Assembly: GCF_000003195.3 (NCBI RefSeq)
Contig: NC_012872.2
Location: forward strand, 23,956,066-24,020,065
Origin: Sorghum bicolor
Taxonomy: Eukaryota; Streptophyta; Magnoliopsida; Poales; Poaceae
Direction: 5' to 3'
Length of the DNA: 64,000 bases
Part shown: positions 24,751 to 28,014 of the stretch, in pieces
Numbering within the stretch: position 1 is the stretch's first letter
Layout: every line of letters begins with the position of its first letter
Notes under the pieces: model-generated
Told to the model about the DNA's origin: nothing
Databases searched by the model: none
The model's input: the letters and a program-made list of their open reading frames with translations, nothing else
Translations under genes and position numbers: made by a program

Positions 24751-27700
24751 TCAGGTGTTCAGCAGTGCCTGGATTGCAGATATGGCGCGCAGCCGAATTT
24801 GGTTGGCTGTCTCTATCTCTTTGATATCATCATCGGCAGAACCTTCAATCGGCTTCAATTTCTTCTTCAGTTGCAGCGCTTTACGACCATGGATGTTTCG
24901 TTCCTGTTCAAGATGCTTGATGGCCTCCGGCAGCTGACTATCTTCCTGTTGGGCTTGGGACAGGGCGTCTTCCACTTGCTTGAGTTCAGCCAGCAGAGCT
25001 TCTCTTTTGGCCGATAGATCGGACATTTTCTGCTTCAGTGCGTCACCTGAGGACTTTAAGATGCCGATGTTCTTATGTTTCTCATCGGCTAAGAGTTTTT
25101 CTTTTGCCATCTCCTCAGAAAGTTGGACTTGAGCAGCTCTGTCGGCAAGGCGCCGGGTAGCTCTCTGGTACTGTAACTGCCGGCTTTCTAGATGTGCAGC
25201 GTGGAAGAGTGCTTCCTCGGCATCGGCAGGGATTTGGCCTCTAAGGGTCTTGAACAGAGCTTTGGCTGGGTCGGAATCATCGACCAGTTGGGTTGTGTCT
25301 TGATGAAGTATGGCGGACAACTCCTCCAGCCTAGCTTTGGTTTCTGCCGATACGATTCCAACTGCCTGAGAAGAGCTTGCTTCCTCGCCCTCTTCTTCAA
25401 AGATATCAATGGCGAAGGAAAATAAGCTGTCGGGAGAATCTTGTTCCTGAAGATGAAATAAGTTAATTTTATGGTCAAGACGTCAGCGGATGATACCGAT
25501 TGAAAGGTGGATGACTTACTTGCTTCAGGGCAATTTCCTGCCTTTGACTCAGAGAGGCCGATAGAGCTGCAGGTTGATCGGCAGATGTTGCCGATAGAAT
25601 GATATCGCCTGAAAGAAGACAGGAAGGATTATAAGAAGAAATGAAAATAAGTTTATCGGTAGGAGTATTATTGGGATATGCTACCCGGAATTGGAACAAC
25701 AGTTGTTTGGATTGAGGAGACCGCCGATGACATAACTGGACCTGCCGGGCCAGTTGTTTGTTCGCCTACGTCAGATAATGCGCCTGCCGTTCGAGGTACT
25801 TCTTGCTGAGGTTCTTCGGTCTGTAGTGCTTCCTGTATTGATTGAGGAGATGTTCCTTGCTGTGCTTGGGCTCCTGGAGGGGAAGGAGAAGATCCCACCG
25901 GGATTGGAAACACCGGAGGAGGAGGAGAAGTTGCCACTTTCTGACGCTTTGGTCCAGTCTTGACGCCTTGGACGCCTTTCCTCTTTGGCTGGCTAGACTG
26001 GGGGAGATCGGCACCTTGACGTTTGGCTTTTGCCGATGTACCAGTTTGCTGCAACAACAATAAAGAGTTTATAAGCACAGATAACCGATATAAAGATAAG
26101 TCAGCATAAATAAAAAGGGGTTTTAAACAGATTGCCTTGAAAGCTTGCGCCAGAGTGGAAGCAGTTACCGGTGGAGATGTCTGAGTTTTCCTGGTAGTAA
26201 CTTTCTTGAGACGCGCACCCCGATGTACGATGGAGGCCACAGTGGGAGCATTGTGGCCGATTGAGGAGATCGGGCCTGATGGGAATAAGTCGATCGGCTT
26301 GCCACTCCTGCTGACCGATGGGGGGGTGTTATCAATCTGCAAAAAGAATATGGGGGTAAATTATCAATGAGAATAGTATTGGAAAATGAGACATCGGTTT
26401 AAAGCACTTACAATGTCGTCAGGAACTTCATATTCGGGGTCGATCATGCCGCGGTATGAGAGAGCCGATCTGCAGAATAAATTCTCCTTCCATTCTGCCC
26501 ACCATAGCTTGTATGCTTGAGTGATAAAGGCAGCTGGAACCCATTCTGACAGATCTACATCTGTATCGGCATTTGGTGGTAACTGGGCTACTCGAGTCCA
26601 CTCGAGGAGGTTAGCGATGGGTTCTCTGGGCTTTATTACATCGGCATAAGGAAGTGCGATCGGCAATTGGCCGAAAGCCAGCTGGCGAGCTAATGCCGAT
26701 GGGTTATAGAATTCATAGGTTTGGGGAGAGGTTTTCGTGCTGCCGAAGAAGTTCACTGGTATGGCTCTGGGAGTCACGATTGCCATCATCACCTCGTTGT
26801 CCCTATCAAGAGCGTCGTCGAATGGATTGAAGGTCAGAGGGAGCATGCTGTCTGGGTCGTCATAAGCTAGCCACGGTCGTTCATCTCTGGCCAGACCCTC
26901 ATACAGCGTTTCGAAGAATCGGCCGATCTGATCCGGAGCGTTCCCTGAACCGGGTAAAACTATAACGGCTTCGCCGAAGTTCAGGGGGGCACGTGTTGCC
27001 GATTCCTCTTCGCCCAACACATGGTTCTCGGCTATATCTCTTGGGAAGTGCTGAGAGAACAAGTTGAGATCAAGGCGCTTGTGCAGGTGCAGATTGAGCC
27101 ACATATTGATAAACCACCAAGGACCTCCCAAGTTGCCGATAGGTTGGCCGAGTAGGAGTTTCTGGGCTACCTGATGAAGGAGGTGATAAACAGCACCGAG
27201 CAGATAGCGGCCGAGAGGAAATTGACCGCCGCTAGCCAATCTTTCTGCTGCCGATAGGTAGACAGAAGTCGGTCCTGCCGATCGACCACAGAATACGAAC
27301 TTGTCTAGCCACATGTTCAGAAAAGTGGTTTGTTCCTTTAAGGTAACAGGTCCTTTCCCGCGGTACTTCTGGATGTACCCTGACCAGCCGCCGATAGCGC
27401 GAGTCTCCACTTTGGCGCTGGGGGCGGTATCGAAAAAGTGGGTGCTATCGGCAGAAGATATGTCTAACCCAGTGAGCATGGCTACATCGGCAAGGGTAGG
27501 AGAAGCAGGGCCGTGGCCGAAAATAAAAGCGTTGAGAGTATCTGACCAGAAGTAAGGTGCGGCTATCAGCAACGACTCGTTTCTGTGCATATCGGCAATG
27601 GACAGCCTGATGCATTGAGCTAATTTTCTCTCACCCCATTGAATTTCATAAGAGTTGCTGACCCTCAAGAACCAGTCTTTCCATCCTACAGTAGGGCTAG

Positions 27701-28014
27701 GCCAAGAACGAAAGGTGTCTTTCCATAGATCTAGAGTAAAGTTTTCAGCTCTAAAGGGAATCCTGTTGGTTTCTGCGTTGATGAGGTCGGTTGGATCTGG
27801 ATCCCCTAGAGGGCCGAGACACTGAAGATGTGGTTGATCGGTAGGGATGACAATTTTGTTGGATAATTCCTGGTGTTTTGGGGAATAAAAATACAAAGAA
27901 AAAGGGGAAGGAAAATATTCGGTAAGGTAAATCGCAGATGAACAGGAATGCAGGAAAAAGGTACAATGGGTGAGATGAAAGTCTGACCTCGGGGACGACG
28001 AAACCGACGGCCAT
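24751..28014 (-). CDS. E5 antisense gene: plant mobile domain protein, six exons
   Basis: I predict exons 28014-27988, 27869-26412, 26336-26136, 26048-25685, 25608-25520 and 25446-24751. They total 2835 nt with no internal stop, giving 944 aa. Introns are GT-AG except the third, which is GC-AG (AAG|GCAATC). Exon 2 (residues 10-495) carries the plant mobile domain, with the hallmark stretch HGPASPTLADVAMLTGLDI. Exons 3-4 are basic and Pro-rich, with a bipartite nuclear-signal-like PKRKGVQGVKTGPKRQK. Exon 6 (231 aa) is a long charged coiled coil. The ATG has AAGATGG context and no upstream ATG lies between it and the TATA box at 28164. PMD proteins MAIN and MAIL1 of Arabidopsis act in transposon silencing and gene expression. 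The function here is unknown; a nuclear regulatory role is inference. The whole structure recurs in E4. Confidence 0.85.

Follow-up and report, generated by a model that had tools for sequence, protein, structure and literature searches.

A 64-kb stretch of the Sorghum bicolor genome (the window, by which the whole stretch is meant) contains two Ty3/gypsy elements of one family, the inner being nested in the gag of the outer, and each carries on the strand opposite to gag-pol a predicted gene of six exons whose product contains a plant mobile domain (PMD). With a probability of roughly 0.55, the product of this antisense gene is a VANC-like DNA-binding protein whose target would be the six-base word GCCGAT in its own element and which would prevent silencing. 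This proposal draws on a modelled fold, on the selection seen on the word and on an analogy with VANC21 of the VANDAL21 transposon. An earlier, sequence-only reading of this DNA had mentioned neither the array of words nor the VANC-like fold, nor that the element is nested in a relative.

The GCCGAT word is under selection

GCCGAT, counted together with its complement ATCGGC, occurs 94 times in the 12350 bp of the inner element against 5.9 +/- 2.7 expected and a maximum of 15 in 200 dinucleotide shuffles, which is a 16-fold excess and corresponds to about one word per 130 bp. The outer element has 106 copies and the remaining 39807 bp of the window, other retrotransposon coding pieces included, have 10. 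A clear enrichment is seen for just one of the 18 one-mismatch variants, ACCGAT (29 versus 5.4 expected); next in number come GCCGAA (13/5.9), GCAGAT (12/7.7), GTCGAT (11/5.5), TCCGAT (11/7.9) and GCCAAT (11/8.3); 17 of the 18 number only 3-13. Bases flanking the word carry little information except for a T before and a G after it, and the spacing is random (coefficient of variation of 1.04 versus 0.98 expected). Within the inner element, 79 of the 94 words lie within coding sequence, and the antisense gene has none in its introns. When synonymous codons were shuffled 300 times with the proteins kept, 4.0, 6.1 and 5.6 words were expected in pol, gag-pro and the PMD gene, respectively, while the actual numbers are 20, 29 and 30. 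The words of the inner element are not due to tandem repeats, no tandem array having been found there; the outer element has two short arrays, one of which bears words.

Conservation was assessed between the inner and outer copies, so that these tests, like the dN/dS values given below, concern one pair of related copies; the word tests treat bases as independent. In the 3' region, where identity is 75-89% in 300-bp steps, the outer copy preserves 33 of the 37 inner words and the inner one 33 of the 43 outer words, as compared to 34.9% of all 6-mers and to 48/152 (32%) control NNCGNN words. Out of 326 6-mers with at least 4 occurrences, the word is there both the best conserved (p 8e-12) and the commonest. 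In gag-pol it is intact in 40 of 45 cases versus a 67% baseline and ranks best of 690 6-mers (p 6e-4). Third codon positions of the antisense exons have changed at 2/59 sites inside the word and 313/886 outside, and noncoding bases at 0/42 and 242/1161, respectively. For codons whose amino acid is unchanged, 1/50 differ in the word (amino-acid-matched expectation, 16.3) versus 257/741 elsewhere. At the 37 sites of the 3' region, the six bases show 3, 0, 0, 1, 1 and 0 changes, with 9, 1 and 10 at the three bases before the word, 7, 8 and 6 at those after it and 1 at the fourth after. At the 45 gag-pol sites, the corresponding values are 2, 2, 0, 2, 2 and 0, with 0-8 in the flanks and no clear edge. 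These data show that the word is under selection, including at synonymous sites.

A footprint of the word at the protein level, namely the dipeptides that it would encode, was also looked for in relatives; the outcome is mixed and confounded by common ancestry, and it does not enter the evidence. For 14 Oryza PMD proteins, the ranks out of 364 are SA 1, IG 2, PM 9, AD 21 and PI 166, and in the C-terminal parts of the 9 of these 14 that have an anchor, AD ranks 20, SA 21, IG 34 and PI 101 of 200. The ranks are AD 3, SA 6, IG 29, PI 60 and PM 294 of 355 in 21 metagenome or genome proteins, and AD 1, PI 4, SA 14 and IG 43 of 212 in the Miscanthus protein P0001. In pol, SA occurs 8-11 times in P0123-P0126 versus 3.5-4.5 expected; the pooled ratios are SA 1.44, AD 1.48, IG 1.54 and PI 0.94 for 19 nearer relatives, SA 1.63, AD 2.35 and IG 1.53 for 13 rice proteins, and SA 1.15, AD 1.19, IG 1.38 and PM 1.5 for 21 dicot proteins.

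Several local features of the array were also observed. Words are found upstream of the TATA box of the antisense gene (at 28377, 28432 and 28460), and the four words of the 144-bp gap separating pol from this gene (24607-24750) form two inverted pairs 15 bp apart, 4/4 being kept in the outer copy. In exon 5 of the outer gene, a 33-bp tandem duplication (36506-36581) has two words per unit and represents a possible route to word multiplication, by analogy with what has been described for VANDAL targets. Finally, other gag-pol fragments of the window (47535-48410 and 56257-59521), which display a sub-threshold Retrotrans_gag match as well as RVT_1, RT_RNaseH and zinc knuckle matches, contain 0-1 GCCGAT per 2 kb and provide an internal control.

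The antisense PMD gene and its predicted product

The six predicted minus-strand exons (28014-24751) join into one frame of 944 aa, as proposed by the sequence-only reading. Because the outer copy keeps 5/5 junctions at matching places and a frame without stop, the antisense gene is confirmed as real and beyond chance, its transcription and splicing being predicted from sequence. The leader between TATAAATA (28172-28165) and the start codon contains no ATG, in agreement with the TATA box and ATG-free leader noted earlier. Splice sites had been described as consensus-like; four of the five introns are GT-AG and intron 3 has a GC donor. In both copies this intron (26049-26135) keeps the frame open and has a length divisible by three (87 and 84 nt, with three indels between inner and outer that sum to -3), so that it may be optionally retained. 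An alternative GT donor at 26128 was rejected, because its frame runs into a stop within exon 4, at codon 88 of exons 3-4. Since the introns are antisense to the genomic RNA, splicing of a sense transcript would not remove them.

Comparison of the two copies shows that the six-exon frame is under purifying selection in both. Over 421 aligned bases of intron there are 8 indels, not one of them divisible by 3 in length; over 2835 nt of exon there is a single indel, of 33 nt. The dN/dS ratio is 0.088 over 944 codons (0.084 for pol), and is thus not near 1, the value across many copies that the sequence-only reading had named, together with an absence of antisense spliced reads, as telling against the gene. 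By exon, it is 0.048 for the PMD exon, 0.288 for the linker exon 4 and 0.062 for the tail exon, with a dS of 0.78 for the whole gene.

The assignment of the product to PMD proteins stood up to a Pfam search, in which PF10536 was matched with 56 bits (gathering score 34.9) and an E-value of 4.8e-15; the same family was matched by 56/56 members of protein set A2 (E up to 10). In the Protein Data Bank (PDB), the modelled fold of the domain encoded by exon 2 has one clear neighbour, which is VANC21 on its target DNA (PDB 9lnj), so that the predicted structure has the fold of the VANC21 DNA-binding region. A viral fold library gave 5 matches to the model, none better than E 3.2. Sequence searches of solved structures returned one chance match and 12 others at E 0.32 or worse, none of which is VANC21. 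Regarding DUF1985, the family of VANC, exon 2 matches PF10536 alone (E up to 10) and DUF1985 is absent among the best 25 of the 44 families listed for the 56 members of set A2; a sequence profile misses VANC21.

Close relatives of the protein are already on record. Miscanthus P0001 and Oryza officinalis P0005 cover 91% and 92% of the 944 aa, respectively, and both combine PF10536 with DUF1409 (PF07197). The latter domain occurs in 4 of the 8 relatives compared; the 944-aa protein itself gave no match to it with E-values up to 1. Among the predicted Miscanthus proteins, P0001 and P0002 read through junction 2, and P0002 also spans junction 5 exactly as in the window; junction 3 is unmatched in both, their sequences differing after AFK. 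The architecture is therefore not new to science, contrary to the earlier view, and a recent capture of a host PMD gene by the element is not favoured, relatives being spread through Oryza and Miscanthus. No relative was found when viral contigs and genome contigs were scanned for the relatives' DNA.

Proposed mechanism, known systems and alternative explanations

VANC21, encoded by VANDAL21, binds the motif YAGTATTAY that has accumulated in this transposon and induces loss of DNA methylation (PMC5735166, PMC10398659). What the sorghum element shares with this system is a VANC-type fold, here modelled, and a short motif accumulated in the element. It differs in that VANDAL21 is an Arabidopsis MULE whereas the present element is a Ty3/gypsy retrotransposon with the gene in antisense, and in that VANC belongs to DUF1985 whereas the window protein is by sequence a PMD. 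VANC motifs lie moreover in noncoding tandem repeats, while the words are dispersed here, with binding and demethylation proposed by analogy. Because the words are mostly coding, no tandem arrays occur in the inner element and the domain is PMD rather than DUF1985, the gene is not filed as a VANC family member; it is a PMD accessory gene that probably works like VANC.

The proposed sequence of events, which is the most parsimonious reading, is as follows. The gene would be transcribed from its own TATA promoter and spliced, and the protein would enter the nucleus, where it would read GCCGAT on both strands along the element; binding would then remove or block silencing marks, in the way that VANC21 is reported to act on VANDAL21. 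As they lie on both strands in the LTRs (long terminal repeats), gag, pol and the gene itself, the words would form an element-wide address carried by every new copy. The frame, the word, the constraint on each and the predicted fold were computed; expression, nuclear entry, binding and an effect on chromatin we infer. There is about an even chance that this represents an LTR-retrotransposon form of sequence-specific anti-silencing, in which the PMD is a VANC-type DNA reader and a six-base address sits in codons, LTRs and spacers about every 130 bp.

No direct tie between the word and the PMD protein emerged here, which weighs against the self-encoded reader and leaves room for a host transcription or chromatin factor that reads GCCGAT and is exploited by the element, the PMD protein acting otherwise. 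The strand symmetry of the word (50/44), as for a site in double-stranded DNA, the four words per inner LTR and those upstream of the antisense TATA box would all suit such a factor. We nevertheless consider it unlikely, since 94 sites running through gag, pol and the 3' gene are not readily explained in this way and the independent fold match to VANC21 favours a reader encoded by the element. That the gene is an ordinary aORF-3R (an antisense ORF, or open reading frame, between pol and the 3' LTR) with some nuclear role, unrelated to the word array, is a rather doubtful proposition: such ORFs are known in several families, gene23 of Grande being nuclear with its own promoter (PMC7264820), and the literature consulted in part links none of them to a DNA word, yet a VANC-type fold and an accumulated, selected motif co-occur here as they do in VANC/VANDAL.

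A role of the words in RNA or in the reverse-transcription or integration complex (packaging, export, binding of Gag or integrase) would agree with their distribution over the whole transcribed unit. It is improbable given that the word is non-palindromic and falls on the two strands in similar numbers, so that genomic RNA would carry two different sequences; in addition, spacing is random and the insertion site of the inner element, CGGTATA, differs from the word. Only two related copies were available and intron 3 is uncertain, which could point to an artefact in the gene model or in the word signal (pseudogene, mutational bias or hypomutable sites). The indel and dN/dS patterns make this highly improbable, and hypomutability would not yield a 16-fold excess of one hexamer with 17 of 18 variants at 3-13.

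As a kind, the gene is not new, since antisense accessory genes, Gypsy-encoded PMDs and close rice and Miscanthus relatives are known. PMD-A clades are described as encoded by Gypsy elements only (Ikeda et al. 2017, PMC5418596), and 57% of Ogre elements are reported to have eORFs with a PMD (Neumann et al. 2019, PMC6317226). These and the present gene have in common a PF10536 domain encoded by an additional ORF in a Ty3/gypsy element of Tat type; the likeness of the gene to PMD-A rests on its residence in a Gypsy element. Neither a six-exon model nor a GCCGAT array or VANC-like fold is described in the accessible portions of these two papers. For Grande gene23, RIRE2 and Retand, antisense ORFs located between pol and the 3' LTR have been reviewed (PMC7264820, PMC11963269), and one occurs in both window copies. 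A nuclear or DNA-binding role has been suggested for aORF-3R; in the portions available, TRP28 is given for the Retand ORFs, Grande and RIRE2 appear without a named domain, and the main text of PMC11963269 has no mention of PMD, mobile domain or intron. MAIN and MAIL1 (genic PMD-C; PMC7156037, PMC9899485) also have the plant mobile domain and have been linked to the promoter 'DOWN' motif, for which direct binding was proposed. Compared by description, they differ in being host genes required for silencing and in their motif (CATGCAGTTT in MORC1).

Counter-silencing by TE-encoded PMDs has been suggested in a review (PMC8616336) and an anti-silencing role of MULE PMDs was a speculation in PMC5418596; the roles of the PMD and of the antisense accessory genes of plant retrotransposons are called unknown (PMC8616336, PMC7264820). 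Neither the GCCGAT word nor a PMD-VANC link is stated in the accessible portions of the literature, including PMC6419827, PMC8616336, PMC13317346, PMC12859917 (which mentions unpublished VANC-DNA structures), PMC12844716 and PMC8756742; the publication behind PDB 9lnj may treat PMDs. The VANC-type fold and the selected, element-wide word make the function of PMDs and of antisense accessory genes testable. If the proposal is true, antisense PMD genes across flowering-plant Gypsy elements would be systems of self-recognition, and MAIN, MAIL1 and other PMD proteins of the host would be domesticated DNA readers. Its confirmation would extend sequence-specific anti-silencing from DNA transposons to LTR retrotransposons, offer direct DNA reading as a molecular hypothesis for MAIN/MAIL1 and imply that a transposon can keep regulatory addresses inside protein-coding sequence via synonymous-site constraint.

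Organisation of the nested elements

ORFs and Pfam domains bear out the Ty3/gypsy nature of the element seen in the sequence-only reading (Table 1). The domains of pol occur in the order RVT_1 (132-291), RT_RNaseH (384-485), RVT_3 (523-642), H2C2 (710-763) and rve (782-878). The second RNase H-like domain (RVT_3) located between RNase H and integrase is the feature used to delimit the Ogre/Retand part of the Tat clade (PMC6317226), which the predicted domain order fits. As the two LTRs are identical at 688/688 bases and a 5-bp target duplication (GTATA) is present, the inner element appears to be a recent insertion.

The outer element (16125-16991 and 29342 onward) has a truncated 5' LTR fused to gag and is without primer binding site (PBS) and gag start. 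Its gag-pro frame is broken (ORFs at 29292-30980 and 31302-32315), although pol and the antisense gene are open, pol having 1077 aa in both copies. Divergence between the two elements (18399-28653 versus 29342-39638) is mosaic: gag-pol is mostly ca. 94% identical (86-97% per 300 bp), the PMD gene 75-88% and the LTRs 88%, with dS at 0.26 for pol and 0.78 for the antisense gene. This pattern suggests recombination between subfamilies.

Table 1. Position of the features identified in the window
Feature	Position	Strand	Basis
Outer element, same family, split by inner one; 106 words	16125-40317	+	LTR comparison, word count
5' target-site duplication GTATA	16987-16991	.	Flank sequences, LTR ends
Inner element 5' LTR, 4 words	16992-17679	+	Identical to 3' LTR
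Array of 94 dispersed GCCGAT/ATCGGC words (50 plus, 44 minus)	16992-29341	.	Counts, selection tests
Putative primer binding site TGGCACGCCCAGTGGGAC	17687-17704	+	Just after 5' LTR
gag-protease frame, 29 GCCGAT/ATCGGC words	17726-21373	+	ORF; Pfam Retrotrans_gag, gag-asp_proteas; word count
pol frame: reverse transcriptase, RNase H, second RNase H-like RVT_3 domain, integrase; 20 words	21373-24606	+	ORF, Pfam, word count
Noncoding gap between convergent pol and PMD genes, 4 words	24607-24750	.	4/4 intact in outer copy
PMD gene exon 6: coiled-coil-like tail, stop 24751-24753	24751-25446	-	ORF, outer copy
PMD gene exon 5	25520-25608	-	Junction 5 also spanned in predicted Miscanthus P0002
PMD gene exon 4, variable linker	25685-26048	-	Exon joining, both copies
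PMD gene exon 3, GC donor	26136-26336	-	Exon joining, both copies
PMD gene exon 2: plant mobile domain, modelled fold like VANC21	26412-27869	-	Pfam PF10536; structure model
PMD gene exon 1	27988-28014	-	ATG 28014-28012; outer copy same
TATAAATA (TATA box) upstream of antisense gene	28165-28172	-	Counterpart at 39155, outer copy
Putative polypurine tract ACTGGGGGGCATG	28641-28653	+	Adjoins 3' LTR
Inner element 3' LTR, 4 words	28654-29341	+	LTR comparison
3' target-site duplication GTATA	29342-29346	.	Flank sequences
Outer copy PMD gene, intact, 955 aa, 34 words (31 exonic, 3 intronic)	35702-38998	-	Exon mapping
Outer PMD exons	38998-38972, 38850-37393, 37316-37116, 37031-36668, 36591-36470, 36397-35702	-	Exon mapping

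The surroundings of the nested elements (2600-16000 and 40300-54900) form a diverged cluster of direct repeats, with units for instance at ca. 2.6, 8.6, 42.8 and 54 kb, and possibly correspond to tandemly duplicated host sequence.
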